Source: a virus. From it: a stretch of DNA of 57,719 bases. Shown here one piece after another: positions 6,701 through 57,719 of this stretch. Position 1 is the stretch's first letter; every line of letters begins with the position of its first letter. The stretch covers positions 1 to 57,719 of IMG/VR virus record IMGVR_UViG_3300030389_002117. One strand, given 5' to 3'. The notes beneath the pieces were generated by a model. It saw only the letters and a program-made list of their open reading frames with translations, made no database searches and had not been told where the DNA came from. The position numbers and the translations under genes are program-made.

Positions 6701-9649
6701 TTAGGGTTAGGTGATGGAGCTACTACTGCTCAGCTAATGAAATTCCAAGGTTTGGGAGATATAGGGCTACGAATAGATGAAGCTATGAGATATGCAAGAG
6801 GTAGTGTTGAAAAAACAAGGAATAGGTATAGGACAGTAGAAAAGGATTTACTTAACTTAGCAAAAACAATCGAAAAAATAGACGAAAATGGAATGAAAAT
6901 CTTAAATGATATTATTTATGGTGACGATTTTGGAGCCACCCTTTACCAGGTTGACCCGACTAAGCCGAGAGCAGAATATTTAAAAGAGAAAGATGGAACC
7001 CCTGTTACTGACACGAGTGGTAACGTTAAGGTAGAAATATGGGATAAAATACATGCGTATTTAGATGAAAATACTAAGTCTAAAAACCAAAAAAATCTTA
7101 CTCTTGCTATGTTTAACAAAATGAAAAATCATTATAGAGATGAGTATAGAAGACTATTAGATGTTATAAAAGGGCAATTAATAGAGCAAGATTTAAGCAC
7201 TGTTTCTCCAGAAGGAAGAAAAACAAAAAAAAGTTTAATTGAAAAAATATTAAACGATAGAGAACTTGAAGTATATTTTCCATTGGTGCGTCAGGGTAAA
7301 TTTGGTATAGCATACAGAATAGCAAACCCAGGACAAAATATTGTAAAAGAAGATGTAAATTATACAGCTGACCCGAATATATTCATAAAAGTAGACTCTC
7401 TAGCTTCAAAAAGAAGAATATTAGATGAACTAAGAGAAAGAGAAAGAAAGGGTGAAATAGAAAAAGACAGCATTCAAGACTTTGGAAGAGATAATGAATT
7501 ATTTCAAAAAGTAAATTTTAGAGAATCTGCCCCCACAAGTTTTGTGGCTAATCTATTAACATCAATAGAACAAAGTGAAAATTTGAATGTTCAAACAAAA
7601 GAAAGTTTAAAAAGAGATGTTCAAGACTTATACATGAACACGTTACCAGAAACATCTTTGGCTAGACAAGTACGAGAAAGAAAACAGATTGTAGGTTTTG
7701 AAAGAGATGCTTTAGCAGCTTTTAGAACAAAGGGTCTTGATTTAACTTTGAAAACAGACCAATTAAAAGGAAACGCACAACTAAGAGAGTTACAATCTGA
7801 GCTACTAAACAAAATAAGAAAGTTTAAACCAGAGGCACGGAGGGTTGGAACTGTAGCTTCTGTGGCAAAAACTGCCGCCCCAACAGCTACTCGACTTGCA
7901 AATGATATGCTCCTGCGTATGGATTTTGCCATGAACGGTGCAGCTAATAAATCTTTTGAAAAAGCTGTAAAAAGTTTAAACCAATCAGCTTTCCTTTTTA
8001 CTCTGGGGTTTAATGTTTCTTCTGCAATGGTGAATCTTAGTCAAATACCTTTAGTTGTATTCCCTTATTTCGGAGCAAGGTATGGTTATTCTAACACTGT
8101 GAGAGAAATAGGCAAAGCTAGTAAACTTGTATCCGGATCAAATATGTCCATAAGTAAATATTTTGATGAAAATAATAATTTAGAACCTAAATATGAAAAC
8201 CTTATAAGAAGAAGGTATAAAAATTATGGAGAAGAAAGAATACAAGAGGAGCTTGATAACATAAGAGAATACAATACGTTGGTGAGGGTTGCTGCAGATC
8301 AAGGGCAACTTACAAACTCTTACATTTTTGATGCTTTGGGGTTACAAGAAAAAAGAAATTTGCTTGATAAAATAACAGCACTTTCTGCTTTTGTTTTTAA
8401 TTATGCAGAACGTTTTAATAGACAATCAATTCTCATGGCAAGTTATAAATTAAATCTTCAACGATACAAAGACGCAAAAAATATGAGTGCTAGTGAATTT
8501 AAAAAGAAATATAAGCTAACACCGTTACCTGGAGTTTCAATTAACCCTCAAGATGTAATTAAAAAATATGGCGATAAACCAATCGAAGATGTGAAAGAGA
8601 TGATTGCCAAAGAGGCTATAGTTGAAACTCAAAAAGTTAATGCGGGCACACAGTTAGAAACAGGTCCAAGAGTTGCACAACAAGGAGTTGGTCGTTTAGC
8701 TTTTATGTATAAAGCTTTTGGGTTAAGAATGTATACAACTTTATGGACTTCTGTGCTTAAAACTATAAAGGCTGATCCAGATTTAACCAAAGAAGAAAGA
8801 ATAGTGGCGGCAAAAGAATTAGCAGGGGTATTAGGTACGTCTAGTATTTTTGCTGGGATACAAGGTGTGCCCATCTATGGAGCAATACAACTCTTTGCTA
8901 ACTTATTTTTGGACGACGAAGAAGATGATTTTGATACTCTTGTAAGACGACATTTTGGCGAGTTAGCGTATAAAGGTCCTATAAACCATCTAACAGGTTT
9001 AAATTTATCCGACAGAATACGTTTATCTGAGTTACTTATACAAGAAAATAAATTTAATACTAACCAAGGTTTAGAAGATTCTTTATTTAGGTATCTTGGT
9101 GGACCTTCTGCTAGCGTCCTAAAAAAAGGAGAACGTGCTGTTACACAGTTTTTAGACAAAGAGTATTTAGAATCGCTTGAAGCTTTACTTCCAGCATCAT
9201 TATTAGGCATTTTTAGAAGTAGTAATCTTGTATTTGGTGACGGAGCTTATAAAACTCAAAGAGGAGATATTATATATGATGATGTAACAGCCACAGAAGC
9301 TATTGGACAACTTTTGGGTTTTCCTCCAGCAGAGTATACCAGAATACAAGAGATGAATTTATACAGAAAAAGAATAGACAAAGCTGTTTCAAGAAGAAGA
9401 ACAAAGTTATTAAAGAAATATTATCTTTCTTTTAGAGAAGGAAAATATGACGAAATGCAAGATGCTTTGAATGATATAAGAAAATTTAACACAGATTATG
9501 CAAGGTTCCCAGATATAATTATTGACGATGATGCGATTGAGAGATCGGTAAAACGTCACGAAGAAACATCTGCCCAAATGAAAAAATATAACGGAGTCAC
9601 GATAACAAACAAACAACTTATTGATGACCTAACACTTTTCAGTCAATAA
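3755..9649 (+). CDS. 1964-residue polyvalent / internal virion protein with zincin-like metallopeptidase motif
   Basis: The largest complete gene in the window. The N-terminus (MPIYEIYKKDGTPV) matches the usual start of large internal virion proteins of marine podoviruses. Residues about 40-200 contain Gly/Ala-rich hydrophobic segments that may be membrane-active. HEVIH at residues 806-810 fits the zincin motif HExxH, and the acidic stretch DEFIAE about 45 residues later could supply a third ligand. The region from about 960 to 1964 is helical, with hydrophobic segments near 1410 and 1690 and an acidic patch (DDEEDDF). This layout matches phage polyvalent proteins, which are packaged and enter the host with the DNA. 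The metallopeptidase call rests on one motif and needs profile support. The gene is the last of the rightward operon and ends at a terminator hairpin. Confidence 0.8.
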   Translation: MPIYEIYKKDGTPVRVEGPEGATFNQLRDIALGTAPAPKPTLEEQQERLRYQASLAPRTTLGTIGSVGQGIASGLLGTFETGLIGAATVLPEERETKLRGGIKRLAETIRGAAPRLTSAPLQYEDKIPKKFGEALGSFGAVLGTALIPGVGLPGAIGLSVGLGAGEASERARAAGATPEQRTRAARYGVIPGFLEVLPAARLTNRIRKGLGDKAFEGMKGAGLRVLGQAGVEGLQEFASGVAQNLIEQGIYNPEKGTFTNTGEDLGLGAGVGGFVQAIVEVIAPGRARGGVDAPQVPPPEETGPVETTRAQEEQLLLPGPPRQLPGPVEDRPFTVTPEGVAERTDDLTRRSQFLRDQLGQEAANLTPNKLQMIKDIDEDIRLVAAKITETEKSMANASVADRVNATNEDVNKINVLRRQKAGILSGIPGSKEEKATIEDGPKLIKEKDRPKLIEDQTKLDVPIVTYDGIVILSDLDGKKAEFKKKIGAPLTKKKPEEIFAPLSNGVAFQSILRSNVDSGFGPFIPTLTENVDPVKEIAKTPSGKILAAGMGPEDIKRIAQDGSKERREYTKNILQNLGKEETQVKDDIQESEQDRQREVDERLKLTQPELSKRQFVDLKDDVIKPLTTQDFNKTADGVYKFIVGEAKELDVKLPANYLNNLNNSINILKNKRKKLGEKVNDTELQREARNLLDKNLERIRNIAFKDIDLLPSSQISSLANPLVPEVQGNLNEGNLFKALSNMSKTSNLSSDILKSLAYFSGEVEKNNTKVVVNPNMNPKVAGSFNKSTNTIEINPTTGFNNHVLLHEVIHSVVQNTVNNKSHPLRSQLNTLFNDVKNSLSTAYGSTSLDEFIAETFSNVSFQKELATINLKGEPVSVLQRFYNSIVNFLNNIIFKKPSKPLTALDSANSVLESLIVPTSKDVGAKTLLQNTRLSSLKNIFDPILRSKKIIEEDNSSSKPKFLADKFQFLTDNQVTELAKNFLLGLGDGATTAQLMKFQGLGDIGLRIDEAMRYARGSVEKTRNRYRTVEKDLLNLAKTIEKIDENGMKILNDIIYGDDFGATLYQVDPTKPRAEYLKEKDGTPVTDTSGNVKVEIWDKIHAYLDENTKSKNQKNLTLAMFNKMKNHYRDEYRRLLDVIKGQLIEQDLSTVSPEGRKTKKSLIEKILNDRELEVYFPLVRQGKFGIAYRIANPGQNIVKEDVNYTADPNIFIKVDSLASKRRILDELRERERKGEIEKDSIQDFGRDNELFQKVNFRESAPTSFVANLLTSIEQSENLNVQTKESLKRDVQDLYMNTLPETSLARQVRERKQIVGFERDALAAFRTKGLDLTLKTDQLKGNAQLRELQSELLNKIRKFKPEARRVGTVASVAKTAAPTATRLANDMLLRMDFAMNGAANKSFEKAVKSLNQSAFLFTLGFNVSSAMVNLSQIPLVVFPYFGARYGYSNTVREIGKASKLVSGSNMSISKYFDENNNLEPKYENLIRRRYKNYGEERIQEELDNIREYNTLVRVAADQGQLTNSYIFDALGLQEKRNLLDKITALSAFVFNYAERFNRQSILMASYKLNLQRYKDAKNMSASEFKKKYKLTPLPGVSINPQDVIKKYGDKPIEDVKEMIAKEAIVETQKVNAGTQLETGPRVAQQGVGRLAFMYKAFGLRMYTTLWTSVLKTIKADPDLTKEERIVAAKELAGVLGTSSIFAGIQGVPIYGAIQLFANLFLDDEEDDFDTLVRRHFGELAYKGPINHLTGLNLSDRIRLSELLIQENKFNTNQGLEDSLFRYLGGPSASVLKKGERAVTQFLDKEYLESLEALLPASLLGIFRSSNLVFGDGAYKTQRGDIIYDDVTATEAIGQLLGFPPAEYTRIQEMNLYRKRIDKAVSRRRTKLLKKYYLSFREGKYDEMQDALNDIRKFNTDYARFPDIIIDDDAIERSVKRHEETSAQMKKYNGVTITNKQLIDDLTLFSQ

Positions 9650-9714: not shown

Positions 9715-9948
9715 TCACATAATTCTCCACATGCGAACCCCTAATTTACCATTTTCTATACGAACATGCGTTTCTACTTGCCATTTTTTGTTTTTTGCAG
9801 TTGTTTGTAGCTGTTCAACTGCTTTACTTGTGTTGATACAAGGAATAAACACAGAAGAACTTGTTACCATACGGTCCCAGTTTACTATGATCCGAATGCC
9901 GTCGGGGTTCAAATCATGTATCTTTAATATTCCCTGCCTTATTCTCAT
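9715..9948 (-). CDS. Small hypothetical phage protein, last gene of leftward operon
   Basis: A 77-residue protein starting inside the 3' end of the primase-helicase gene (35-base overlap), which suggests translational coupling. The fold looks alpha/beta with a basic C-terminal half (KNKKWQVETHVRIENGKLGVRMW). I do not recognise a family. The overlap, position and uninterrupted frame support it over the opposite-strand frame that covers the same bases. It could be a small nucleic-acid-binding accessory to the primase, which is a guess from location. Confidence 0.55.
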   Translation of the reverse strand: MRIRQGILKIHDLNPDGIRIIVNWDRMVTSSSVFIPCINTSKAVEQLQTTAKNKKWQVETHVRIENGKLGVRMWRIM

Positions 9949-12670
9949 TATCTATTGAACAATCTACTACAATTACATGAGTTACGGGGAGTTTCATGCT
10001 AGTTCCTTTACTTAATCGCATCCTTGTTCTTTTAGCTCCAAATTTTGTTTTAAGATCTTGAACAAAAGCACTATAGTTAATCTGTTGCTCTCCACACCAG
10101 GCTTTGAGTGGTTTAGGTATTAAGTATGCACGCTGTAAATCAGTTTCGTATCGAGCAACAAGTTTTCCCCTCGGCAAAGATTCAGGGATAACGAGTTCTG
10201 CTGTGCCATCTTCTTGCCCACGAAGATCGTCCGTGCTTTTTATCCACAGCACGTTACCCCAATGTTCGTGTATGTAATCATTTAAAGTTTCTTCCACAGA
10301 TATGCTCATGTCTTCTACTTGCAACTTATTGTCTTTTAACCTCTGTATTGCCCAAGTAAATATTTTTTTGGTATCATAATTTATAAGTCCTACACGTTTG
10401 GCAATGATTAAACCTGTTAAAGTTGCAGATACAAGAATTGACCAGTATCTATTCTCAGCTGTAAGTCCTGCTTTTTCATCAACTCGTATCTGCACATCGG
10501 ATAAAAGTTTTTTCACCGTTTCTAAATTATTCATAATGTATTTCACATATATTTTCCCTGCGTGCCCATAGTTGTTTTTTAGGCAGGCACTAAACACATC
10601 TGTTTCTCCTTTTGTGTCAAAATAAGCACGATTTACACGACACTCCATAATTCTTTGAGCCTCTGCTTTTGGCATTGCTTTTATAATACTTATGCGTTCT
10701 ACCATGCTTGTGTTTCCGGTTGTTACAGCAAGTAAACTCCAAGGTTTACCTCTATGTCGTTCAACATTACTACTTGACGTCATACGACCACGCTGTCTAC
10801 CCCCTGTAAGTTGATATGCTAAATTAGATAATTCTTTACCACTCGTGTTAGTAAGTTCATCCATATAGAGTGGTAGGTTATGATAAACTTCGCCCCTATT
10901 CATCTTTGTGTTATACGTATCCCTCTCGATCATAACTAATTCTTCTGGGCTACCCCACACGGATACGGCGGCTAACATAGCTGTTGTTTTACCCACACCT
11001 GATTCTTTACTATAAATGTGAAGACCCGCACAGTTTATAGGGGACATCTCCATCAGGGGTGACCCGAAAGATGTACCCACTACAAATTGATGGAGTTCAA
11101 ACCCATCTCTGTTATAAAAATTAAGAGTGTCTTTCCAATCTTCTAAAGTTCCCTTGGGTTCAAACGAAGAAAATAAACCCGTTGTAGCCGCAGAGGGCGG
11201 GTTAAACTTCACGTCATCCTTACTAATCTCTTCGTTACCTAATACAAAACTATCAAAATTATCGTCCGTCCACCCGAACTGCCGACGTGCTTCATCAGCT
11301 TTATCTGTCATCTGTAAATGATTCACCCATGTTGTCGTGTATTTCATTATTTCTTCCATTCTCGTTACTGCTATGCCTTGTTCAGACAATTTCTTTCTAA
11401 GTTCTTCTTTTGAAGTAACAGCGGTTAGTTGCACTGTAAACTCCCTGACGCCGTCTTTTGGTAGATGTAATCGCATCACAATCGACTCTCCTAGTTCGAC
11501 ATCATGTGTACGTTTTACAACATATAAATCATTATGATATATTAATTTATCTTCGGGGTCACCATCTGCGTTAAGAAATCTTACATATACCCCTCCATTT
11601 GCTCCTCTGAAATAGGGTTGCGGGTATTTAGGCACTTGGTCACCTGATGATTTTTTTATAGTCTGTCCAAGCATTATCGGAGATGTAATTTTATCACTTT
11701 TATGGTGCATACAATTTTCGCAAAGGTCGGGGTTGTGTTCAAAAAAACGCTCACACCGATAAGGTCCTTTTATCAAATCAACCTTCTCTTGTGTTAATTG
11801 TTTATCGTAACCCTCGTGACCTATAGATATAATGTCTATTGCTTTTTTACTATCTTTACAAAACTTTGCTATAGATAAACCCGCTCTCCAAAGAGGTTCG
11901 CTTACATTTTCTTTGTTTTGAACAATATTCAATAGCTGGGCACAGCCGGTTCCTTTGATTGTTTTTTGTAGTATTTGTTTAAAAGAGTTTTCGTAGTTGC
12001 TATATAGTGCTTCTCGAAAAGCATTTTCTGCTGAATCCACTTTAACAGGTGTAGGTATAATGTTTCCACATATTAATTTAGAAAAATGTTCAAAACCCAC
12101 ACATTTAACATCTTCTTTACCTAATATAGTAACCTGTTTGGGTGTACCCCCTTTGTGGTTGTGTGTTCCAGGCACACGCAACACCCTTGCTGTATCTGCT
12201 GTAACTGCAGGGTCTGCCCTCAACCCATGAGTCACGCATACTTTTTTCAGTTGATTTGCAACGGGTAACCACTCATCAGGGTGAACAGCTTCTTTTAAAA
12301 CCCAGTACACATGTATGCCGTTACCTGAGTTTATCATAACAGGTTTAGGTAAAGATAGTTTAGCTACAAAACTTCGTAAGTCTTTTATAGCGTCTGTTTG
12401 GTTTTCGTAATCTTTGCCTTGCCCACAATCTAAATCTAAGAAAAAAGATTTAAGGCACTTTACATTCTCTTGTTTGCGGTTTTTGTTTGTGCTTAAAGTG
12501 GCTAAACCAAAAAAAGCATTTAATCCTCGGTTATCTAAATTAGTGGTTGCGTGAATAATAGAATCTATTGAGTCATATATTTTCTGAGTACCTCTTCCAC
12601 CATTAAACGCTAAAACACTATAAAACCCATCTTCTCCAAGCACACTCTCCAAAAATGTTTTTGTCTCCAT
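9914..12670 (-). CDS. Primase-helicase: AEP-type primase with C-terminal DUF927-like ATPase
   Basis: A 918-residue protein. The N-terminal 200 residues show AEP primase signatures: FFLDLDCG with metal-binding Asp residues, SGNGIHVYW with a catalytic-type His, and TARVLRVPGTHNHK. A Cys cluster (CERFFEHNPDLCENCMHHK, about residues 300-325) may bind zinc. The C-terminal half has Walker A SGVGKTT near residue 560 and a downstream acidic LYMDEL that fits Walker B, as in DUF927-type helicases. Such fusions prime and unwind DNA at the phage fork. It follows the ssDNA-binding gene, separated by a hairpin at 12692-12727. Domain order is seen; strand polarity and primer type are not known. Confidence 0.85.
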   Translation of the reverse strand: METKTFLESVLGEDGFYSVLAFNGGRGTQKIYDSIDSIIHATTNLDNRGLNAFFGLATLSTNKNRKQENVKCLKSFFLDLDCGQGKDYENQTDAIKDLRSFVAKLSLPKPVMINSGNGIHVYWVLKEAVHPDEWLPVANQLKKVCVTHGLRADPAVTADTARVLRVPGTHNHKGGTPKQVTILGKEDVKCVGFEHFSKLICGNIIPTPVKVDSAENAFREALYSNYENSFKQILQKTIKGTGCAQLLNIVQNKENVSEPLWRAGLSIAKFCKDSKKAIDIISIGHEGYDKQLTQEKVDLIKGPYRCERFFEHNPDLCENCMHHKSDKITSPIMLGQTIKKSSGDQVPKYPQPYFRGANGGVYVRFLNADGDPEDKLIYHNDLYVVKRTHDVELGESIVMRLHLPKDGVREFTVQLTAVTSKEELRKKLSEQGIAVTRMEEIMKYTTTWVNHLQMTDKADEARRQFGWTDDNFDSFVLGNEEISKDDVKFNPPSAATTGLFSSFEPKGTLEDWKDTLNFYNRDGFELHQFVVGTSFGSPLMEMSPINCAGLHIYSKESGVGKTTAMLAAVSVWGSPEELVMIERDTYNTKMNRGEVYHNLPLYMDELTNTSGKELSNLAYQLTGGRQRGRMTSSSNVERHRGKPWSLLAVTTGNTSMVERISIIKAMPKAEAQRIMECRVNRAYFDTKGETDVFSACLKNNYGHAGKIYVKYIMNNLETVKKLLSDVQIRVDEKAGLTAENRYWSILVSATLTGLIIAKRVGLINYDTKKIFTWAIQRLKDNKLQVEDMSISVEETLNDYIHEHWGNVLWIKSTDDLRGQEDGTAELVIPESLPRGKLVARYETDLQRAYLIPKPLKAWCGEQQINYSAFVQDLKTKFGAKRTRMRLSKGTSMKLPVTHVIVVDCSIDNENKAGNIKDT

Positions 12671-14168: not shown

Positions 14169-15696
14169 GTATTTCTTTGTATAAATCTATTAATTTTGTG
14201 TGTACGTCTATTCTTCTATCTAATAACCTGTAAACGTGTTTTTCTGCAGCAGATCCTTGTAACTGAACAACTGTACACTTATGTTTCTGTCCTGACCTAT
14301 GCACTCTGGCATTTGCTTGGTCGTATGTTTCTAAAGAACTTGTTGGACCCCACCACACAACTGTATTGGCGGCGGTCAAAGTTACTCCATGCGATGCGGC
14401 TTGCGGTTGAATAACTAAGACTTTTGGGTCTGATGATTCTTGAAAACTTTTAAATATGGCTGTTCTTTTATGAGCTGACACGTCTCCTCGAATAACATCA
14501 GTAGTTATTCCCTCTAGTCTTAACTTCTTTGTAAGTATATCTATGACGTGCTTAAAAGGCACAAACACTAATATCTTTTGGCTTGACTCATCAATCACTT
14601 CTCGCAAGACTTTATATCGGTGCTTTATGTCGAACTCTAACACGTCGCCGTCATCCGTGTATACGGCACCCGCAGATAGTTGTAGTAACTTGTTAAGGCT
14701 TACTGCGGCATTCATAGCTGTAACTTGTTCTCCTGTGATGTCCATGACCATTTTATCTTTGAGTTGTTTATAATATTTTTTCTGTTGAGCTGTCAGCTCC
14801 ACAGACCGTTTGGAAAAAACCATATCGGGTAAGTCCAAGCACTCTTCTTTTGTAAAACGTATAGCGGGTTGTAAAGCTCTAAACACCGTGTCTGTTGCTG
14901 TTTCACGCACCTTCCATGTAAATTGAGATACTTTAAACATTAACATGTCTTTAAATGACCCAAAGAACCGAGGTACACCGTTTGGGTTAACAAGTTTAGC
15001 TAAACCGTATGCGTCCACGGGACTTTGTGCAGCCGGTGTACCCGTCATCATCCACAACCACGTATTCTCGGACATAAGTAATCTTAAATTTTTCCAACGA
15101 GTTGTTCGAACATTTTTATAGTGTGTAGCTTCATCTACAATAATTAAATCAAAGCCTCCTTTTTGTAGCTCATCACGCACAACACCTATGCCATCATAAT
15201 TAATAATCACATATTCTTTGCCTTCTTTAATTATGTTCTTTCTCTTTTCAGATGAGCCATACGCAACAGAAACAGTTCTATGCGTTGCAAAAGTAAACAA
15301 GTCATCACGCCAAGCACTATCCATAATTGATAAGGGGCAGACCACTAGCACCCGTTTGATTGCACCTTGCTTCAGTAAATAGTCAGACGCCCAGATTGCA
15401 CTCGCTGTTTTACCTGTGCCTTGCTCGTTAAAACAAAACGCTCTTTTGTTTAAAGTAAGAAACGAAGCTGTTGATATTTGGTGTTTAAAAGGTTTGTGTT
15501 GACCTGTCCACACGTAGTTTTTTTCTATAGGTGAAGGAGCTTTAATATTCAATGCGTTAAGGCTCATTGCTTCATGTAGTCCCCAGTTTACAAGCACATT
15601 GTTATTACTTATTATTTTACTTTTTGGGATATTGTTTACAACTCTGTCAGGGTCACGTAGTTTGAATAACAAAGCTTTGTTATCTATAATCTGCAT
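14161..15696 (-). CDS. SNF2-family DEAD-like helicase/translocase
   Basis: A 511-residue protein with the full SF2/SNF2 motif series: motif I NEQGTGKT (about residues 86-93), motif II DEAT (about 188), motif III MTGTP (about 218), and motif VI QANARVHRSGQ near residue 470. It should couple ATP hydrolysis to translocation on double-stranded DNA. Phage SNF2 proteins of this length often sit in replication modules and may aid replication, recombination or removal of host proteins from DNA. Its start follows GAGAGAGA at good spacing, and a small basic gene lies directly upstream. Confidence 0.9.
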   Translation of the reverse strand: MQIIDNKALLFKLRDPDRVVNNIPKSKIISNNNVLVNWGLHEAMSLNALNIKAPSPIEKNYVWTGQHKPFKHQISTASFLTLNKRAFCFNEQGTGKTASAIWASDYLLKQGAIKRVLVVCPLSIMDSAWRDDLFTFATHRTVSVAYGSSEKRKNIIKEGKEYVIINYDGIGVVRDELQKGGFDLIIVDEATHYKNVRTTRWKNLRLLMSENTWLWMMTGTPAAQSPVDAYGLAKLVNPNGVPRFFGSFKDMLMFKVSQFTWKVRETATDTVFRALQPAIRFTKEECLDLPDMVFSKRSVELTAQQKKYYKQLKDKMVMDITGEQVTAMNAAVSLNKLLQLSAGAVYTDDGDVLEFDIKHRYKVLREVIDESSQKILVFVPFKHVIDILTKKLRLEGITTDVIRGDVSAHKRTAIFKSFQESSDPKVLVIQPQAASHGVTLTAANTVVWWGPTSSLETYDQANARVHRSGQKHKCTVVQLQGSAAEKHVYRLLDRRIDVHTKLIDLYKEILD

Positions 15697-15712
15697 TTTC
15701 TCTCTCTTAAAT

Positions 15713-15841
15713 TTATTTTTTCTTTTTCTTTTTTGCTTTGCTAGGAAGAATGCCTTTGTTTACTGCTCTGGCTCTTTCACTAAAACCTAACTTCTTACCT
15801 TGCTTTACTTTTTTTCTAATTGTTTCTAATTTAGCGACCAT
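15713..15841 (-). CDS. 42-residue Lys-rich small protein
   Basis: The minus-strand frame reads MVAKLETIRKKVKQGKK, then LGFSERARAVNKGI and a C-terminal run of Lys, ending at TAA 15713-15715. It fits the 17-base-offset gap between the SNF2 helicase and the next basic gene without large overlap. It is one of a set of small, very basic proteins in this genome that probably bind nucleic acid. No family is recognised, and existence is supported only by position and coding style. Confidence 0.55.
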   Translation of the reverse strand: MVAKLETIRKKVKQGKKLGFSERARAVNKGILPSKAKKKKKK

Positions 15842-15842
15842 A

Positions 15843-16130
15843 TTATTTTTTCCCTCGTTTTGCCCTCAACCTCTCTTTTGCCCTCTTGGCTATTTGTGCT
15901 TGTTCGGTTTTACCAGATACTTTTGCTCTTTGTTCCATAACCGTAAGTATCTGTATTTTCCGTGCAAAAGGTTTGTTTACGTTCATCACCTTCCTTGCCG
16001 TATCTCTTGCGTCTTGAACAGTTGCATATTTAATACCTACTGTATCTTTAGGATTCTCGTCTGTATAAAGTCTGCGACCAGAACCTTTGGGTTTTTTACC
16101 CGTACCTACTTTTGGGTCTTTTTTCTTCAT
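15843..16130 (-). CDS. Small basic phage protein (DUF6321-like)
   Basis: A 95-residue protein. It contains the phrases KPKGSGRRLYTDENPKDTVG and ARKIQILTVMEQRAKVSG, which I recognise from small basic proteins of marine phages in the DUF6321 style. It is rich in Lys and Arg at both ends and predicted helical in the second half. It belongs to a run of three basic genes (15713-16375) between helicase and RecB-like nuclease. DNA binding is likely; the role is unknown. Confidence 0.7.
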   Translation of the reverse strand: MKKKDPKVGTGKKPKGSGRRLYTDENPKDTVGIKYATVQDARDTARKVMNVNKPFARKIQILTVMEQRAKVSGKTEQAQIAKRAKERLRAKRGKK

Positions 16131-16375
16131 TTTTTCTTTTTCCTTCCATTTCTGGCACGGTTCTTTGAAGGACTTTCTAGCCTTGTGCCGTCCTTGTTAG
16201 AACCACCTTTACTTAACATCTTATTGTGTGATACATCTTTACCTTTTCGGCTAATTCCCTTTTTATCGTATGCACGTCTAGCACGTTGACGCTCCATGCG
16301 ATCTGGATGTTCACCACGTTTTTTCTGTTGTTGATATTCTTTTTTGTAGGGTCTAGGGGATTTAGTGTATGCCAT
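16127..16375 (-). CDS. 82-residue basic protein with HNH-like pattern
   Basis: A Lys/Arg-rich protein overlapping both neighbours by a few bases. The C-terminal half reads VSHNKMLSKGGSNKDGTRLE and then SPSKNRARNG. The order His, Gly-Gly-Ser-Asn, Leu, Asn-Arg follows the layout of an HNH beta-beta-alpha metal module, but the usual first His/Asp pair and the zinc Cys residues are missing. It may be a degenerate HNH fold or a plain DNA-binding protein. The gene call is firm from the tight overlaps; the HNH reading is inference. Confidence 0.65.
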   Translation of the reverse strand: MAYTKSPRPYKKEYQQQKKRGEHPDRMERQRARRAYDKKGISRKGKDVSHNKMLSKGGSNKDGTRLESPSKNRARNGRKKKK

Positions 16376-17040
16376 CAGTTACTCCCATTATGTACACATT
16401 CGAGAACGGCACAATGGTTTCTACATAAACCACTTGGACGTGCGTTCCATATATCTTCTTCGTAAGCGACTTCCATGCGTTTATAATTCGCTATCCATTT
16501 ATCGCACAAATCTTGAATCATGTCATCTGTATATTTATGTTTGATGAGTTTTTTTGCGACAACGAACAACAACCCCGCATGTATTTTTGTTACTTGAGGG
16601 AAGTGTTTAAACGTGGCAATCGCCATCAATTCTAACTGCCCTTTATCTGCATACTTTGCAGATTTACTTGTTTTATAGTCTACAACAAATGCTTTACTAT
16701 TATTTATAATTATCAGGTCTGCTATCCCCCTCCACCAAACTTCTTTCGCTTTAAAGGTGCATGGTTCTAAATCGTCCGTAAGTCCCATGCGAACTTCTGT
16801 TAACTTCTTACCTTGCTTTGAATTTAGTGGTTTTAACAGCTTATCCATAAAGATGTATTTGTCAGGAACTGGTTTCCCATCACGAATATATTCTTCAGCA
16901 ACGAGATGAACTTTTGTTCCGTAGTCCATAGCTTCAGTATACCCTTGTTTATAATCTTTTGCTATTCGCAAATGATAAAACTGTTTGGGACATTGCTCAA
17001 ACGACTTTATAGAACTATATGACCATGGAGTTATACTCAT
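16375..17040 (-). CDS. RecB/Cas4-like PD-(D/E)XK exonuclease
   Basis: A 221-residue protein with the hallmarks of the PDDEXK_1/Cas4 group. SSIKSFEQCPKQFYH lies near the N-terminus (Cys17), GTKVHLVAEEYI is the RecB-type helix, and GIADLIII followed by VVDYKTSK holds the catalytic Asp and Asp-x-Lys. Three more Cys lie near the C-terminus (206, 210, 215), so with Cys17 an iron-sulfur cluster as in Cas4 and AddB is possible. Likely substrate is DNA ends, for recombination or host DNA degradation. It is translationally coupled to its neighbours by 1-4 base overlaps. Confidence 0.85.
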   Translation of the reverse strand: MSITPWSYSSIKSFEQCPKQFYHLRIAKDYKQGYTEAMDYGTKVHLVAEEYIRDGKPVPDKYIFMDKLLKPLNSKQGKKLTEVRMGLTDDLEPCTFKAKEVWWRGIADLIIINNSKAFVVDYKTSKSAKYADKGQLELMAIATFKHFPQVTKIHAGLLFVVAKKLIKHKYTDDMIQDLCDKWIANYKRMEVAYEEDIWNARPSGLCRNHCAVLECVHNGSN

Positions 17041-20803: not shown

Positions 20804-20821
20804 GGGGTAACATGTTACCCC
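20804..20821. promoter_or_regulatory. 18-bp perfect palindrome GGGGTAACATGTTACCCC (operator candidate)
   Basis: Perfect dyad in the short gap between the genes at 20770 and 20840, 33 bases before the ATG at 20770. It shares the GTAAC half-site and 6-9 bp arms with sites at 23086, 25932, 26829, 27089, 27682, 27740 and 27803. Unlike three of these it lacks the conserved flank ATTAACCAA. It is most likely a dimeric repressor or activator site. An RNA stem with a CATG loop is the alternative. Confidence 0.75.
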
Positions 20822-23064: not shown

Positions 23065-23104
23065 TGTTTTCTCCTTTGGTTAATAGGGTAACGTGTTACC
23101 CCGT
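23065..23104 (-). promoter_or_regulatory. Conserved palindromic leader, copy 1 (23086-23101 dyad)
   Basis: On the minus strand: CAAC, then GGGTAACACGTTACCC (7-bp arms, 2-base centre), then TATTAACCAAAGGAGAAAACA directly before the ATG at 23064. The purine-rich GGAG is the ribosome site, so the palindrome ends only about 20 bases before the start codon. The same arrangement recurs before 25909 and 27065. Confidence 0.75.
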
Positions 23105-25909: not shown

Positions 25910-25951
25910 TGTTTTATCCTCTTGGTTAATGGGGTAACATGTTACCCTGTT
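25910..25951 (-). promoter_or_regulatory. Conserved palindromic leader, copy 2 (25932-25947 dyad)
   Basis: On the minus strand: CAACA, then the perfect 16-bp dyad GGGTAACATGTTACCC, then CATTAACCAAGAGGATAAAACA before the ATG of the MoxR gene. Same design and spacing as the leaders at 23065 and 27066. It also lies directly after the stop of the DUF3150-like gene, so it could act on DNA as an operator or on RNA as an intercistronic hairpin. Confidence 0.75.
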
Positions 25952-25958
25952 GTTTAAA

Positions 25959-26867
25959 TTAGAAGTCAAGTGTTTTGATTTGCTTGATTGCTTCGTCAAC
26001 CTTTGTCTTAACTTGTTTGCGTAAGGTTGCATCTTTACGTAACCCATCAGGTGTTACGTCCTTAAATAACTCTTGTAAACTTTTACGTAACTTTGTTATC
26101 TCAGGGTCATCTGTTATACCCAGAAGAGAGATTGCATTGGTCACATTCGATACAAGAGTATCTCGGAAAGTCTTTTTGGATTCGTTGTCCTTGAAATCCA
26201 GACGTTCCGACATTCTTTGCAAAGGGTCAACCATGGATATGATTGCCTTTGTGAACATACGATTATAATATTCCTCGAAATTTTTCTTTATAGCATCTTC
26301 TTGCTCTTTGCCTATATCAACTCTGAAGTCTGGTGCTGACGGCAAAGCCATGACGTTTAGTCGCCAACTAAATTTATCTCGTAACGTGTTTGCGTCGGGA
26401 TAATCGTTTTGGTTGAACAAGTCACCGAGTTTTGTTTGTGCTTCGATAACTGCCCAATCGTATGACTTCAAAAATGTCTCGACTAATTTCCAATATTTTT
26501 GTTCAAGTTCTGACAGTTTGTTTGTAAAAGATAAAAACTCGCCGTTGGGTATTATACGCAATCCGTTGTCTGACCATGGCAAAGTTAATTGATAAACTGT
26601 ACTGCGTGCTAAACCTACAAACTTTTTTATTGCATCTAAGTTTGGGTTATTACCGAGTAATGACTTGTAAACACTCGCCACGTTGACATCTGCGTTATTA
26701 CTTGCCGTGACTTGAGAACTTGCTCCTTTATCTTGGCAACGTCCTGTCCATTGTGAGATATTAAACTCAACCAAAGAACAAGCTCCTGTTAAACTTGGGT
26801 ATGTGTTTTGTTGTGTTGTTGAGTAATCGGGTAACGTGTTACCCTGTTGTGTTGTTGTATCTTTCAT
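25959..26867 (-). CDS. DUF3150-like protein of the MoxR/VWA module
   Basis: A 302-residue protein. The body is helical with phrases typical of phage DUF3150 proteins, such as FSWRLNVMALPSAPDFRVD and a C-terminal KVDEAIKQIKTL. DUF3150 genes commonly sit beside phage MoxR ATPases, as here. The start at 26867 follows AGGAGAATAAA. Its first codons are unusual: codons 8-13 (QGNTLP) are encoded by a GGGTAAC/GTTACCC palindrome, and residues 5-25 are Thr/Gln-rich. The N-terminus may thus be shaped by an embedded operator rather than by protein function. Confidence 0.75.
   Translation of the reverse strand: MKDTTTQQGNTLPDYSTTQQNTYPSLTGACSLVEFNISQWTGRCQDKGASSQVTASNNADVNVASVYKSLLGNNPNLDAIKKFVGLARSTVYQLTLPWSDNGLRIIPNGEFLSFTNKLSELEQKYWKLVETFLKSYDWAVIEAQTKLGDLFNQNDYPDANTLRDKFSWRLNVMALPSAPDFRVDIGKEQEDAIKKNFEEYYNRMFTKAIISMVDPLQRMSERLDFKDNESKKTFRDTLVSNVTNAISLLGITDDPEITKLRKSLQELFKDVTPDGLRKDATLRKQVKTKVDEAIKQIKTLDF
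26829..26844. promoter_or_regulatory. Palindrome inside the start of the DUF3150-like gene
   Basis: GGGTAACGTGTTACCC, 7-bp arms with a 2-base centre, lies 23-39 bases inside the coding sequence. It belongs to the same site family as the intergenic leaders but lacks the ATTAACCAA flank. Binding here would act as a roadblock just after transcription start, or the RNA stem would affect early translation. Confidence 0.7.
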
Positions 26868-27065: not shown

Positions 27066-27111
27066 ATTGTTTTACCTCTTTGGTTAATGGGGTAACACGT
27101 TACCCCGTTGG
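27066..27111 (-). promoter_or_regulatory. Conserved palindromic leader, copy 3 (27089-27106 dyad)
   Basis: On the minus strand: CAAC, then an 18-bp dyad of GGGGTAAC/GTTACCCC arms with a 2-base centre, then ATTAACCAAAGAGGTAAAACAA before the ATG at 27065. A degenerate second site, GTAACGTGTTATC, follows at 27125-27137. This copy borders the origin-like region. Confidence 0.75.
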
Positions 27112-27257
27112 TTAAATCTTTGTAGTAACGTGTTATCATATGACGTTATACGATAACTTGAAACCACTTACAGTATAGCAAATTACAGGGCTTGTGTCAA
27201 GAAGTGTTACTCAAGAGTTTTTAGTATCACATGGTGTTACATAAGTTTTTTGAGTAT

Positions 27258-27290
27258 AATGTTACCCTAATGTTACCCTAATGTTACCTT
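27258..27290 (+). repeat. Iteron array A: three 11-bp AATGTTACCCT units
   Basis: Units at 27258-27268, 27269-27279 and 27280-27290; the third ends in CTT instead of CCT. They have exact 11-bp periodicity, about one DNA helical turn, so sites lie on one face of the helix. The array is the reverse complement of array B. Confidence 0.9.
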
Positions 27291-27419
27291 TTATTTTAGT
27301 GTAAGTCATTGAAAATAAAAGAATGTTACTTTGTTACCTTTTTATCGGATAGGAGAGAGTTTTAAAAAAGCGGTGGTTGTGGTGGTGGAAAAGGTAACAA
27401 AACCCTAACAAACTAAAAT

Positions 27420-27530
27420 GTTTCTTTATAATTTTTAAAAAGGTAACATTATAAAAAATATAGTAAAAATAATAAAATTCTTATGCTTATAAATAACTAT
27501 ATACAACTATATACAACTAGGTACAACCAA
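27420..27530. other. AT-rich core between iteron arrays (candidate unwinding element)
   Basis: Nearly all A/T with short direct repeats (ACTATATACAACTATATACA, 10-bp period) and an isolated AAGGTAACATT site at 27440-27450. It lies between the two oppositely oriented iteron arrays, the position expected for an unwinding element. Confidence 0.45.
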
Positions 27531-27535
27531 AATCA

Positions 27536-27569
27536 AATGTTACCTTTTGCCTGAAAAAAAGGTAACATT
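27536..27569. repeat. 13-bp inverted repeat beside iteron array B
   Basis: AATGTTACCTTTT at 27536-27548 and its reverse complement AAAAGGTAACATT at 27557-27569, separated by 8 bases. The right arm is also the first iteron of array B. It could form a cruciform or place two initiator molecules face to face. Confidence 0.8.
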
Positions 27570-27602
27570 AGGGTAACATTAGGGTAACATTAGGGTAACA
27601 TT
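27559..27602 (-). repeat. Iteron array B: four 11-bp AGGGTAACATT units
   Basis: Units at 27559-27569 (AAGGTAACATT), 27570-27580, 27581-27591 and 27592-27602. Exact 11-bp period. Inverted relative to array A, about 300 bp away. Confidence 0.9.
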
Positions 27603-27612
27603 ATAAAACTAC

Positions 27613-27666
27613 GTCATAACGTGTTATCACAAGATTATCATGTCATAACGTGTTGTCACAAGATTA
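27613..27666. repeat. 25-bp direct repeat pair, 29-bp period
   Basis: GTCATAACGTGTT, then A or G, then TCACAAGATTA: copies at 27613-27637 and 27642-27666 differ by one base. Each contains TAACGTGTTA or TAACGTGTTG, a degenerate form of the palindromic site. Confidence 0.8.
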
Positions 27667-27667
27667 C

Positions 27668-27870
27668 TTGGTTACTCAACGGTGTAACATGTTACACAGA
27701 AGCTCAACGCAGACCAAAAAACTGGTTTCGATTAAACGGGTAACATGTTACACAGATACTCAAAGCACAATGCGGAAGTAAAAGACTTGTTTAATCAAAC
27801 GGGTAACGTGTTACACTGTGAGTAGCTAAGTAACATCAAGGCATATTATCTGAGGCACAACGCAGAACAT
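27668..27870. repeat. Three ~60-bp degenerate repeats each with a GTAAC palindrome
   Basis: Palindromes lie at 27682-27697 (GTGTAACATGTTACAC, perfect 16 bp), 27740-27751 (GTAACATGTTAC) and 27803-27814 (GTAACGTGTTAC), spaced about 56 and 63 bp. The stretches between share degenerate words such as CTCAACGCAGA, CACAATGCGGAA, CACAACGCAGAA and AACTGG. The regular spacing of about 5-6 helical turns would let bound proteins loop or wrap the DNA. Confidence 0.75.
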
Positions 27871-27898
27871 ACAACTGGCATCATAAAAAATTTTTAGA

Positions 27899-27918
27899 GG
27901 TGACTCCTTAGAGCCACC
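27899..27918 (-). terminator. Terminator downstream of the 27931-28518 gene
   Basis: On the minus strand GGTGGCTC and GAGTCACC form an 8-bp stem (one G-U pair) with a 4-base loop, followed within a few bases by TAAAAATTTTTT. It ends leftward transcription before the repeat-rich region, insulating the candidate origin from the 195-residue gene. Confidence 0.7.
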
Positions 27919-27930
27919 CCTTGTTTTTTG

Positions 27931-28518
27931 TTAAGACATATCTTTTATCTGTTTGATTATATCTTGTAGTGTTTTGATAACTTTTGAATAATCAGCATTG
28001 TTATCACTTTCTTTAGTAGCCCTTGTTTTTGCTTTAGTTAGAAGATTGAGCAAATATTCACTGGCTGGTTTATTTGCACCTTTTTTAGTCTTTCTTTCTA
28101 CACCTTGTACAATCATTAAAGCGTTTCTTATTCTAGTAAAGTAACTAGTGTAACTTCTAACTTCCTTTACTTTATCGATGCCTGCTGGGTATACTTTAGC
28201 AATAGCTTTGTTTCTTTTAGCCGGGTCAGATATTGTATTAAATATTTGACACAAAGATACTTTAACCTCTTCTGGTGTATGACCTTTAAATAACTTAGGG
28301 AATTTACTAGCTTGTATTCCAATCCTATGTAAATGTACCGCTTTAGTCATAGCATTAGTTGCTTCCTTATTAACACTATCAGCGGGTTTTACTGCCATAT
28401 CATGTGTAAAACCTGCCTCAAAAAGCGCTTGGGCATTATCCAAAACTTGCGAGTCCGCTTTATCAAATGTTTTTAAAAGCTTATTTGCGTTAGTAGTTAT
28501 TTTTTCAAGATTTAACAT
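27931..28518 (-). CDS. 195-residue hypothetical early protein, single-gene unit
   Basis: Basic, mostly helical, beginning MLNLEKITTNANKLLKTFDK. Phrases include TPEEVKVSLCQIFNTISDPA and a Lys-rich segment ERKTKKGANKPA. No family recognised. It has its own promoter candidate with a perfect TTGACA -35 (28599-28604) and its own terminator, so it is transcribed alone as the first leftward gene. This isolation next to the origin-like region makes it a candidate early regulator or initiator binding the GTAAC sites, an inference only. Confidence 0.7.
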   Translation of the reverse strand: MLNLEKITTNANKLLKTFDKADSQVLDNAQALFEAGFTHDMAVKPADSVNKEATNAMTKAVHLHRIGIQASKFPKLFKGHTPEEVKVSLCQIFNTISDPAKRNKAIAKVYPAGIDKVKEVRSYTSYFTRIRNALMIVQGVERKTKKGANKPASEYLLNLLTKAKTRATKESDNNADYSKVIKTLQDIIKQIKDMS

Positions 28519-28663: not shown

Positions 28664-28911
28664 TTTGTGTGTGTAGCTGTGTGCTATATGTATATATATT
28701 ATTTTCCATAAATAAATTCAGTTTTCTTCAGTTTAGACCCCCCACCCCCCTATATATAGAAACACCCCCCTTTGGAGTCCCAAACTACTTTACAAAATAT
28801 TTTTTTGTGCTATATAATGGTTTTGCGTGGTCGCACATAACGGATTCCCAATAATGTACTCATACTTGTCCTGCGGCTACGCCCCAACCGGTTTAGAACC
28901 TGCGAGTTTAT

Positions 28912-29505
28912 ATGACGATGATAGTAGAGCCCGAACTGGGCGTACCGATGAAAAAAGAAAAGGCACCGATTGATTTTAAAGATCGGGTCGAGTCGGCTGC
29001 AAATACAGCGAGTGAGCTCGAAGAACATGGGCTTGATCTTGAACCGTCTAAAGAAGATAAAGATATTGCAGCTAAACTTGTGACCTCCTATGCAGAAAAC
29101 TCTGAAAAAACATCAAATAAAGTAACAGATAAGAAGATTGCGACTCTTACACCGGCTTCTTTGAGGCTCACAGATAGTATTTTAAAAGAATTTGGACGCT
29201 CTGTTGTCGAAAGTTCGGTGCAAATACGTCATTTGGTGACCAACAAACTTCTTTTAGAAACTGATAACCCTGATCCACGGGTAAGAATCCGTGCTTTGGA
29301 GCTTTTAGGAAAGATTTCTGACGTCGGATTGTTCACAGATAAGTCAGAAGTTACTATAACACATCAATCTACAGCCGATTTACGTGAAAAACTTCGTTCG
29401 AAGTTGTCAAAACTTGTTAATCCGCCAGAAGAAGCGGTAATTTTGGACGGAGAACCCGTAAATGTGGACGAAGAACTCGGATTAAACGAGGAAAAAGATG
29501 AATAA
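28912..29505 (+). CDS. terS: Terminase small subunit (probable)
   Basis: A 197-residue protein directly upstream of, and overlapping by 8 bases, the large terminase. It is helical and charged, with RIRALELLGKISDVGLFTD followed by a helical stretch near residues 160-175, in the usual style of small terminases that bind the packaging site. The start is not certain: ATG at 28912, 28918 or 28948 are all possible and none has a strong ribosome site. The small-subunit call is from size, position and style. Confidence 0.7.
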   Translation: MTMIVEPELGVPMKKEKAPIDFKDRVESAANTASELEEHGLDLEPSKEDKDIAAKLVTSYAENSEKTSNKVTDKKIATLTPASLRLTDSILKEFGRSVVESSVQIRHLVTNKLLLETDNPDPRVRIRALELLGKISDVGLFTDKSEVTITHQSTADLREKLRSKLSKLVNPPEEAVILDGEPVNVDEELGLNEEKDE

Positions 29506-31051
29506 ACCCGTTTTAGACTTCACGGAGGAGGAAATACAGCTGATGTTGGACAATTTAGACCAATATACTCCTGAAGAAGTTGCAGAAATTGACAGAATGG
29601 TCGATGAATTGGCTATTCGCAATAAAAATCAGGCATCTTACGACGATTTAATTGCTTTTTGTAGAGCGATGCAGCCTGATTACATCGTAGGTAAGCATCA
29701 TCGCATGCTGGCAGATATGCTCATGGGGATTGAAAGAGGAGAAAAGGACCGTATTTGCGTGAATATTCCTCCTCGACATGGCAAATCTCAGCTTGTTTCG
29801 ATTATGTTTCCTGCATGGTTTCTTGGACGAAACCCAACAAAAAAGGTTATGATGGTGTCCCATACGACTGATCTTGCAGTCGATTTTGGGCGTAAAGTTC
29901 GTAACTTAATAGCCACAGAGGCTTATGAGGCAATCTTTCCAACCGTTAAATTAGCAGTAGACTCAAAATCAGCAGGACGGTGGAATACAAATACAGGAGG
30001 TGAATATTATGCGTGTGGTATTGGTTCTTCTATTGCTGGGCGGGGGGCTGATCTCTTGCTCGTCGACGACCCACACTCTGAACAAGACGTCATTAATGGA
30101 AACTTTGAAGTGTTCGAAAAAGCTTACGACTGGTTCACTTTCGGGGCTCGTACCCGTCTTATGCCAGGAGGTAGCGTTGCCATAATCCAAACCCGTTGGC
30201 ACATGGACGACTTGACAGGACGTGTTGTAAAAGACATGTCACAGAATGATCGGTCTGATCAGTATGAAGTTGTAGAGTTTCCAGCGATTATAGACACAGT
30301 AGATAAAGAAACAGGACTATCTGTTCAAAAACCTTTATGGGCTGAGTTTTTTGACCTGGAAGCTCTACTACGTACAAAAGCATCTATGCCGGTGTTTCAG
30401 TGGAATGCTCAGTATCAACAAGAGCCAACCGCTGAAGAAGCAGCTTTGGTTAAACGAGAGTGGTGGCAAAGATGGAAGAAAGAAAACCCACCCCTTTGCG
30501 AATATATTATCATGTCTTTGGATGCTGCAGCTGAAACGCACAACCGGGCAGACTACACTGCTTTGACGACTTGGGGCGTTTTTTTGAACGAAGAGGTAGA
30601 CAACTACAATATTATTCTGTTAAATAGTATAAAGAAGCGGTTAGAGTTTCCTGAGCTTAAACAAACAGCGATGGATCAGTACAGTGAATGGGAGCCCGAC
30701 TCGTTTATCGTAGAAAAGAAAAGTGCAGGTACAGCCCTGTACCAAGAAATGAGGAGAATGGGAATCCCTGTATCAGAGTTTACTCCACACAGAGGTTCTG
30801 GAGATAAGATGGCAAGACTTAATTCTGTGACAGATATCGTAGCATCAGGGCTTGTATGGATACCTGAAACACGTTGGGCAGAAGAAGTCGTAGAAGAAAT
30901 AGCAGGATTCCCGTTTATGAGTAATGATGACCTCGTAGACGCAACCGTCATGGCTCTTATGCGATTTAGGCAGGGCGGCTTTATAAGACTACCAAACGAT
31001 GAACCAGACGAGGTTCAATATTTTAAACGTAGAAAAAATGGATTTTACTAA
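29498..31051 (+). CDS. terL: Terminase large subunit
   Basis: A 517-residue packaging motor. The N-terminal ATPase has Walker A-like PPRHGKS near residue 91 and Walker B LLLVDDPHS near residue 190. The C-terminal nuclease has MSLDAAAE (RNase H-like first Asp) near residue 340 and NDDLVDATVMALM near the end with further acidic residues. It translocates DNA into the prohead and cuts it. Genes before and after overlap or abut by single bases (ATGA, TAATGG). The Walker A form GRHGKS-type is usual for phage terminases. Confidence 0.95.
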   Translation: MNKPVLDFTEEEIQLMLDNLDQYTPEEVAEIDRMVDELAIRNKNQASYDDLIAFCRAMQPDYIVGKHHRMLADMLMGIERGEKDRICVNIPPRHGKSQLVSIMFPAWFLGRNPTKKVMMVSHTTDLAVDFGRKVRNLIATEAYEAIFPTVKLAVDSKSAGRWNTNTGGEYYACGIGSSIAGRGADLLLVDDPHSEQDVINGNFEVFEKAYDWFTFGARTRLMPGGSVAIIQTRWHMDDLTGRVVKDMSQNDRSDQYEVVEFPAIIDTVDKETGLSVQKPLWAEFFDLEALLRTKASMPVFQWNAQYQQEPTAEEAALVKREWWQRWKKENPPLCEYIIMSLDAAAETHNRADYTALTTWGVFLNEEVDNYNIILLNSIKKRLEFPELKQTAMDQYSEWEPDSFIVEKKSAGTALYQEMRRMGIPVSEFTPHRGSGDKMARLNSVTDIVASGLVWIPETRWAEEVVEEIAGFPFMSNDDLVDATVMALMRFRQGGFIRLPNDEPDEVQYFKRRKNGFY

Positions 31052-57300: not shown

Positions 57301-57719
57301 CGGTGGTGCAACTAGCACTCCTGTTACTGTTACTGGTACTGGTACTGGTACAAATCTCGTTACAGGCACCACTCCCACAATAAGCCCAACAGACCAAGTG
57401 CTTATTGACTTGTTAGGTTACGAAATTGGTCCTGATGGAACCGTAAGACCGCCAGCGCCAGCTGCTAAAACTGGAATAAGTGAAACCGATCAGGTTTTAA
57501 TTGATTTATTAGGCTATAAAATTGGGTCTGATGGGAAAGTTTATGCTCCTGGGACTCAACCAGCAGGTGTGACTCTTGTGGATGCTCCTCCTCCTGCTGG
57601 TGCTACAGGTACTACAGATATTACTACGGGCACTATTACAGGTCCTCCTGCTGGTGCTACAGGTACTACAGATATTACTACGGGCACTATTACAGGTCCT
57701 CCTGCTGGTGCTACAGGTA
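54338..57719 (+). CDS. Giant repeat-rich virion protein, N-terminal 1127 residues (continues at base 1)
   Basis: Open frame from ATG 54338 (MANVGKFTKADPEYFLITEY) without a stop to the window end. It has an acidic, Asn-rich start, hydrophobic Gly/Ala segments near residues 210-260, and three copies of a motif of type ISETDQVLIDLLGYxIGPDG (DNA around 55471, 57379, 57473). Then come Gly/Pro/Thr linkers such as GTGAPATTTGTTTGAP and the 54-bp repeats. With the part at 1-713 it makes a 1364-residue protein. The repeated motif and Thr-rich stalk suggest a fibrous or surface-exposed structural protein. It overlaps the preceding gene by 17 bases. Function is inferred from place among tail genes. Confidence 0.85.
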   Translation, partial: MANVGKFTKADPEYFLITEYGYELGDDGGIVDPTTGAVFGEKALDAALGTTPATTVEDLQDAVEEPYAPELYEKPDPGTGNIYYYYKDEFGDEIDTGTRDIDRATQSMNSYENVVNNNLTPVINSEVYKELAKTDDTYKISEDGAVFKDTGNTWSQVYLGKNASGIPTVNFVDTGKTKIDQAEIWEIGAEGARNEGLGGLINTIIGNPIIRAGLSFIAPGATPFLQAASAAQNVYNGQNAFAAAAGLGLFDGPAQVISDKLSDAVGSTAANTVVQSGVDLLISGGDIGTVALGAAYDQVGAPVTKNIVTDALGLLGIDSGSAAGQNIINSFNTGIKTELLGGDGLTTAAVAAINTAAAQNAAAAAGGDDVAGTDELPKISETDQVLVDMLGYTINPDGTVSPPTNVGSTGAMGPPPSGKVEFTGGAPFPPSTGGADGTITGTPIISPEGSPVFGPSGLASAESQDVYAGAFGNQSTDTLPPAGDAQPLGAAAASDLPPEPSQESKNLVNKILQEETDFNQPGNVISGGEGMFPENLGGALPSVSDTLTDSSKKLFAHVVDKTGVTNTEQLAEVARIFLSGGFQDASSVINASNSLLDKFIDNFVTDDEGIIKNNLKLLDAEKWLIDNAVEIKSNVSPETLVAMDNAQPAPGQSLKDVLSGNAITKDGKPFGTDKFATFLNGVEESGDILVDTAIIGIAKLVRSPGALAVGTGVSAGLSFLEGYGATSQQIEAELKNAYKNNEEFQNVPEFKALVDKYGLDIAAKSFADKASTYLVTGGLSESATDTAAAVMTSKAANKIVTTIASNMIAEGVGEALSDANATAALRSLGFEIEGSEIGTAVVRGVTTGGVASTATTAVTSTSNILANLYNRGFLTDYPGAKQHMEKNYPDLINTGVYVGQPALGPEATTGPLPPPPGGTGTSPVTGGPGTGAPTSITEISGLVPPLGGTGTIPAIGGPGTGAPATTTGTTTGAPGGVSFSQSSSFPLLGGATSTPVTVTGTGTGTNLVTGTTPTISPTDQVLIDLLGYEIGPDGTVRPPAPAAKTGISETDQVLIDLLGYKIGSDGKVYAPGTQPAGVTLVDAPPPAGATGTTDITTGTITGPPAGATGTTDITTGTITGPPAGATG
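57599..57719 (+). repeat. Two perfect 54-bp coding repeats plus start of a third
   Basis: Units 57599-57652 and 57653-57706 are identical and encode an 18-residue block GATGTTDITTGTITGPPA; a third begins at 57707 and is cut by the window edge. It continues into the 12-bp repeats at the left edge when ends are joined. The identity of the copies suggests recent expansion or gene conversion, and copy number may be collapsed in assembly. Confidence 0.9.

Follow-up and report, generated by a model that had tools for sequence, protein, structure and literature searches.

A likely iteron-type replication origin and its candidate primase-helicase initiator in an uncultured lineage of marine tailed phages

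The window, meaning the whole 57,719-base virus record that was analysed, is the genome of a marine tailed phage from an uncultured lineage with genomes of about 58 to 62 kb. Minus-strand genes between 9.9 and 28.5 kb encode a primase-helicase, an ssDNA-binding protein, a SNF2-type helicase, an exonuclease, DNA polymerase A, an AAA ATPase and a VWA-like protein, and the genes for the large terminase and the portal are among those on the plus strand, which begin at 28.9 kb. The terminase is 78 to 82% identical to those of uncultured IMG/VR relatives, which have the same gene order, and about 46% identical to those of the GenBank pelagiphages HTVC027P and HTVC023P; the latter two do not share the layout of the replication module and were set aside. 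Both ends of the record (1-180 and 57540-57719) lie in a repeat of the GGTGCTACAGGTACTACTACAGGT type, and therefore the circle was probably cut within a repetitive gene.

Close to the switch in gene orientation is a noncoding stretch (27066-27930) that contains two repeat arrays with an 11-bp period. It is bordered by a terminator-like hairpin (27896-27921, minus strand) situated 3' of a gene for a 195-aa protein. A near-consensus sigma-70 promoter (TTGACA-17-TATACT, 11/12; minus strand, 27200-27172) is found at the edge of the proposed origin and points into the early genes, and equivalent sequences adjoin the arrays in the relatives L008, L009, L015, L026, L039 and L058. An Rfam search of the origin region found no family. 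Cumulative GC skew, which the first-pass annotation had suggested as a check on its proposal of an iteron-type origin, reaches its minimum at 28889; at that point early genes on the minus strand give way to late genes on the plus strand, and the skew is therefore uninformative about an origin.

The repeats are tightly confined. Every one of the nine AATGTTACC copies that the 57.7-kb window contains falls within 345 bp (27258-27602), compared with an expectation of 0.9 +/- 0.9 copies, and a maximum of 3, in shuffled sequences. Array 1 (about 27257-27290, plus strand) consists of three AATGTTACCYT units (TRF: 2.9 copies, 100% matches), while array 2 (27561-27603, minus strand) consists of four units facing the opposite way (TRF: 3.9 copies, 100%). 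The first-pass annotation had described these as exact 11-bp iterons, three and four in number and opposed in direction; the arrays are there as described, but the 11-mers are nearly rather than fully exact, as one end unit in each array deviates outside AATGTTACC. The two arrays face inward around a core with 79% AT against 62% for the window (27385-27535), a candidate DNA-unwinding element; an AT-rich core had also been noted in the first-pass annotation. A lone iteron lies within this core (27442-27450, minus strand); neither it nor the sigma-70 promoter figured in that annotation. A single inverted iteron (27536-27544, plus strand) forms one arm of the 13-bp inverted repeat that had likewise been noted and that can be placed at 27536-27548/27557-27569. 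Finally, two iteron-like copies, AATGTTACT and TTTGTTACC, are found at 27323-27338 on the plus strand.

Comparison across relatives was one of the checks that had been proposed for these repeats. Querying with the ATPase recovered 80 loci, of which L006 is nearly identical to the window and the others are 45-52% identical over the ATPase. In one of these, L080, the VWA-like and polymerase genes (11230-12481 and 14926-16766) are split into several frames, probably by sequencing errors or frameshifts. The equivalent regions of the relatives carry clustered repeats, usually AATGTTC and sometimes AATGTTACC, TGTTACA or TGTTCCA, and the word has changed in concert across the copies of a genome. When 49 regions were aligned on their most AT-rich iteron copy, forward copies were located mostly at about -182, -150, -140, -130 and -119 and reverse copies mostly at +113, +121, +163, +173 and +185. 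With the lone core iteron as position 0, the window has copies at -152, -141, -130, -119, 0, +121, +163, +174 and +185. Array 1 thus supplies the last three of these offsets, matching the relatives, and AATGTTACT and TTTGTTACC match the +121/+113 positions. The single inverted iteron is at -93 in the window, and about -104 is usual in those relatives that possess one. This spacing is shared by roughly 30 of the 49 related contigs, some of them closely related; the figure is about 30 rather than 49 because the automatic choice of core mis-registers L019, L033, L045, L070 and similar contigs. For L033, L045 and L065, which form a group, either the arrays are weak or the spacing could not be recovered. 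Tandem short repeats with an AT-rich region, as expected of an iteron origin, are therefore kept in most of the readable relatives, and the spacing is conserved even though the repeat word mostly differs.

The likely initiator is the 918-aa primase-helicase (9914-12670, minus strand), which combines a primase-like N-terminus, a DUF927 helicase and a predicted C-terminal winged helix. It matches Pfam DUF927 (2.8e-29), and its sequence matches SCCmec Cch (PDB 5dgk, 9e-12) and SaPI Rep (8tch, 2.7e-11), so its helicase is kin to those of both proteins. An alignment-based structure model of residues 640-918 contains a domain at about residues 839-904 (9959-10156, minus strand) with the order beta-beta-alpha-alpha-beta-beta, with modest confidence for the C-terminal model (mean pLDDT 68, with most of the domain at about 75-85). 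Foldseek placed SaPIbov1 Rep first (E 6e-4), followed by Cch and the winged helices of heat-shock factors, and a second aligner scored 5vfy, a small oriT-binding protein of a plasmid relaxosome, at Z 8.5, Cch at Z 8.3 and SaPIbov1 Rep at Z 7.6. The model thus predicts a C-terminal DNA-binding domain like that of Rep and Cch. None of the 37 proteins scanned against Pfam matched a Rep_3 or RepA_N initiator. Two other proteins, both evolving quickly when L008 is compared with the L009-type contig, were considered as initiators and set aside. For the 308-aa protein, zero columns track the iteron class, and in the case of the 284/356-aa protein the 356-aa version of the window matched no relatives in the column test. 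Distant homologues of the primase-helicase occur in Pseudomonas phage Rollin and Rhizobium phage RHph_TM3_14A, in neither of which a comparable iteron array was found.

The primase-helicase is tied to the iterons by co-variation. Both features could be read in 25 genomes, five with TGTTA iterons (the window, L008, L052, L183 and L214) and 20 with TGTTC iterons, the L033-type members of the latter group having few clear copies. Residue 896 is V or L in TGTTA genomes and P, A or S in TGTTC genomes; residue 898 is H or R in the former and D, W, E or S in the latter. These two positions, V896 and H898 in the window, fall within the predicted winged helix and are the only columns among the 904 tested that separate the classes, compared with one noisy column among 3,172 in 13 other early proteins. 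A 197-aa protein was left out of this test, as not all contigs with switched pairs extend to its gene. On a tree built by a quick search from the primase-helicase minus its C-terminal part, in which two long branches meet, the iteron class has changed at least five times, and all of these changes are forced by well-supported branches. The motif was first spotted on a subset of genomes and proved true of those added afterwards, L183 and L214 among them. When labels were swapped within five sister pairs, the true labelling and its complement gave four separating columns and all others 0-2, which makes them the top 2 of 32 labellings, or 1 in 16. Such statistics are suggestive, and the weight of the argument therefore rests on location, on the independence of the changes and on what was already known about this family of proteins. 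A finer code, in which residue 898 would set the base after TGTTC, was discarded, as L213 has D with TGTTCCA and L010 and L048 have W.

Taken together, the repeats with their conserved spacing and the initiator-type protein with its co-varying residues point most likely to an iteron origin of the SaPI/P4 kind together with its likely initiator. The original proposal of an iteron origin is well supported in this respect, by a geometry kept in most readable relatives and by two residues of an initiator-type protein that follow the repeat word. We put at roughly 80% the probability that 27258-27603 is the replication origin of the phage, that the primase-helicase is its initiator and that the GTAAC palindromes nearby belong to a separate control of early genes, a reading drawn from sequence comparison. 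The primase-helicase would bind AATGTTACC through its C-terminal winged helix, and its molecules would gather in two groups, on the pair of arrays that face inward. Melting of the intervening AT-rich core would follow, and the DUF927 helicase would load itself and start forks, with priming by its own primase-like N-terminal part, a scheme like that put forward for SaPI Rep proteins. The adjacent sigma-70 promoter would drive the early operon that encodes the initiator, and a different protein would act at the palindromes on early genes.

The same arrays could instead be clustered transcription-factor sites serving the strong early promoter at 27200, with no origin present. A near-consensus promoter does lie at the array edge, in an arrangement repeated in several relatives, but it sits outside the arrays, the layout extends over about 340 bp around an AT-rich core, and the residues that co-vary with the repeats belong to a helicase of the replication-initiator type. 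This explanation is thus unlikely.

A second alternative was raised by the first-pass annotation itself, which held that one DNA-binding protein links the origin and early gene control through a common half-site, and which had listed GTAAC palindromes beyond the arrays. Such palindromes are present, with GTAACNNGTTAC at 27092, 27684, 27740 and 27803, and further copies, beyond the range given in that annotation, occur at 20807, 23088, 25934 and 26831, so that all eight in the window lie within 20.8-27.8 kb. GGGTAACACGTTACCC (27090-27105) is 5' of the gene for a 62-aa protein; others fall inside the first codons of a DUF3150-like gene (26829-26844), ahead of the Shine-Dalgarno sequence and start of the AAA ATPase gene (25932-25947), 5' of the 308-aa gene (23086-23101) and 5' of an early gene (20805-20820). 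Three more, GTGTAACATGTTACAC (27682-27697), GGGTAACATGTTACAC (27738-27753) and GGGTAACGTGTTACAC (27801-27816), are upstream of the origin. In favour of a single reader, GGGTAAC/GTTACCC occurs in both types of element in the window and the AT-centred operators contain ATGTTAC, and L026/L034 form another group in which the iteron and operator words resemble each other. Across the relatives, however, the two words vary independently. Nearly every relative has its own palindrome word (TTAGGG-N4, TTAGTG-N3, TAGCCA-N1, TCGGGC-N4, TTTACG, GTCTAC, GTATAC, TAGTCC or GTAAC-N2), mostly in 5-11 copies where contigs are sufficiently long, and many of these palindromes are directly 5' of the Shine-Dalgarno sequences of early genes. 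For instance, L008 and L009 have the operator TAGCCANTGGCTA and near-identical flanks in common but differ in their iterons, one having TGTTAC and the other TGTTCC, and L008 shares about 90-95% identity in its core replication proteins with L010, a contig of the L009 type. Conversely, phages with the TGTTAC iteron of the window mostly have unrelated operators (TAGCCA, GTCTAC, GTATAC, TTAGGG). On the same tree the operator word has changed at least 11 times against five for the iteron class, with wholesale replacement of the word between relatives (L007-L085). A single protein reading both elements is therefore disfavoured and very unlikely, and the GTAAC that they have in common looks coincidental or secondary. 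The palindromes would then be operators for another protein that controls early genes, distinct from the iteron system.

That the arrays are a packaging (pac) site for the small terminase subunit is suggested by their closeness to the terminase genes, which begin about 1.3 kb away (large subunit, 29498-31051, plus strand, with a possible small subunit in the 197-aa gene immediately 5'). This reading is also hardly probable, as it leaves the co-variation with the primase-helicase and the AT-rich core unexplained.

As for the protein that would read the operators, the 195-aa protein adjoining the origin (27931-28518, minus strand) is a weak candidate. It is fast-evolving, has syntenic genes in about 45 relatives and often has an operator just upstream. 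Its model is all-helical (pLDDT 83), and a fold search with it gave no convincing match. Its partial correlation with operator similarity is weak, at 0.29 compared with 0.19-0.20 for two neighbours.

The proposed pair of primase-helicase and iterons can be compared with several known systems. SaPIbov1 Rep and SCCmec Cch are DUF927 self-loading initiator helicases with iteron origins, and the SaPI origin is directly downstream of rep. For SaPI Rep, recognition of the iterons is ascribed to the C-terminal domain (PMC7581432). The window protein resembles SaPIbov1 Rep and Cch detectably in helicase sequence and fold, and its C-terminal domain is likewise proposed to read short iterons; it differs in the primase-like part fused to its N-terminus and in its setting, a marine tailed phage instead of a staphylococcal island. 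Its proposed origin (27.3-27.6 kb) is moreover about 14.6 kb from the initiator gene (9.9-12.7 kb), at the early promoter, and not next to it as in SaPIs, a mismatch in layout which counts against the label of a SaPI replicon and not against the mechanism. The comparison indicates that a SaPI-type replication module is in use by a phage lineage of about 58-62 kb. In phage P4 alpha, too, primase and helicase share a single protein with a C-terminal domain for origin binding, and the iterons are short, but its helicase is of the D5/SF3 type and its origin is arranged differently. Iteron plasmids of the Rep_3 and RepA_N types have the tandem iterons and AT-rich region, whereas the proposed initiator here is a helicase. 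For the palindromes, the closest parallel is the stoperator, an asymmetric site oriented with transcription and read by a monomeric repressor. The window operators resemble stoperators in being multi-copy, near gene starts and diversifying in word between relatives, but are symmetric palindromes. Stoperators of Cluster A mycobacteriophages are described as having many genome-wide copies near gene starts with specificity that diverges between relatives (PMC9283540).

For most uncultured marine phages neither the origin nor the initiator is known. In this lineage both partners, and the residues that probably read the DNA, are indicated by comparison alone. A more tentative possibility is that initiator and origin act as a lock and key that can be switched, mainly through the two winged-helix residues. 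This lock and key may have flipped at least five times, each time with joint replacement of the repeats, and a second, independent network of about 10 palindromic operators per genome would have been rewritten separately. If so, the lock and key together with the operator sets would define groups of replication- and regulation-compatibility among co-infecting phages. The sister phages L008 and L009/L010 differ naturally in exactly the iteron type, which makes initiator-origin specificity, and the joint change of repeat copies, directly testable.

Further conserved elements were seen in the neighbourhood of the origin. Following the palindromes upstream of it are three copies of GA(A/T)ACCAGTT...GCG(T/G)TGAGC (window 27700-27860), with equivalents in L024, L044, L079, L048 and L039. 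A GTGATAACACGTTATGACG-like element is found in the window at 27126, 27617 and 27646, in L039 at 8405-8440 and in L009, and it occurs in relatives with different operator words. Lastly, RHph_TM3_14A has, in the stretch covered, 12 GTTACC-N6-GGTAAC palindromes between 1720 and 46370, together with shorter-armed variants; as a cultured phage with a shared replication module, it could serve as a laboratory model for the operator network.
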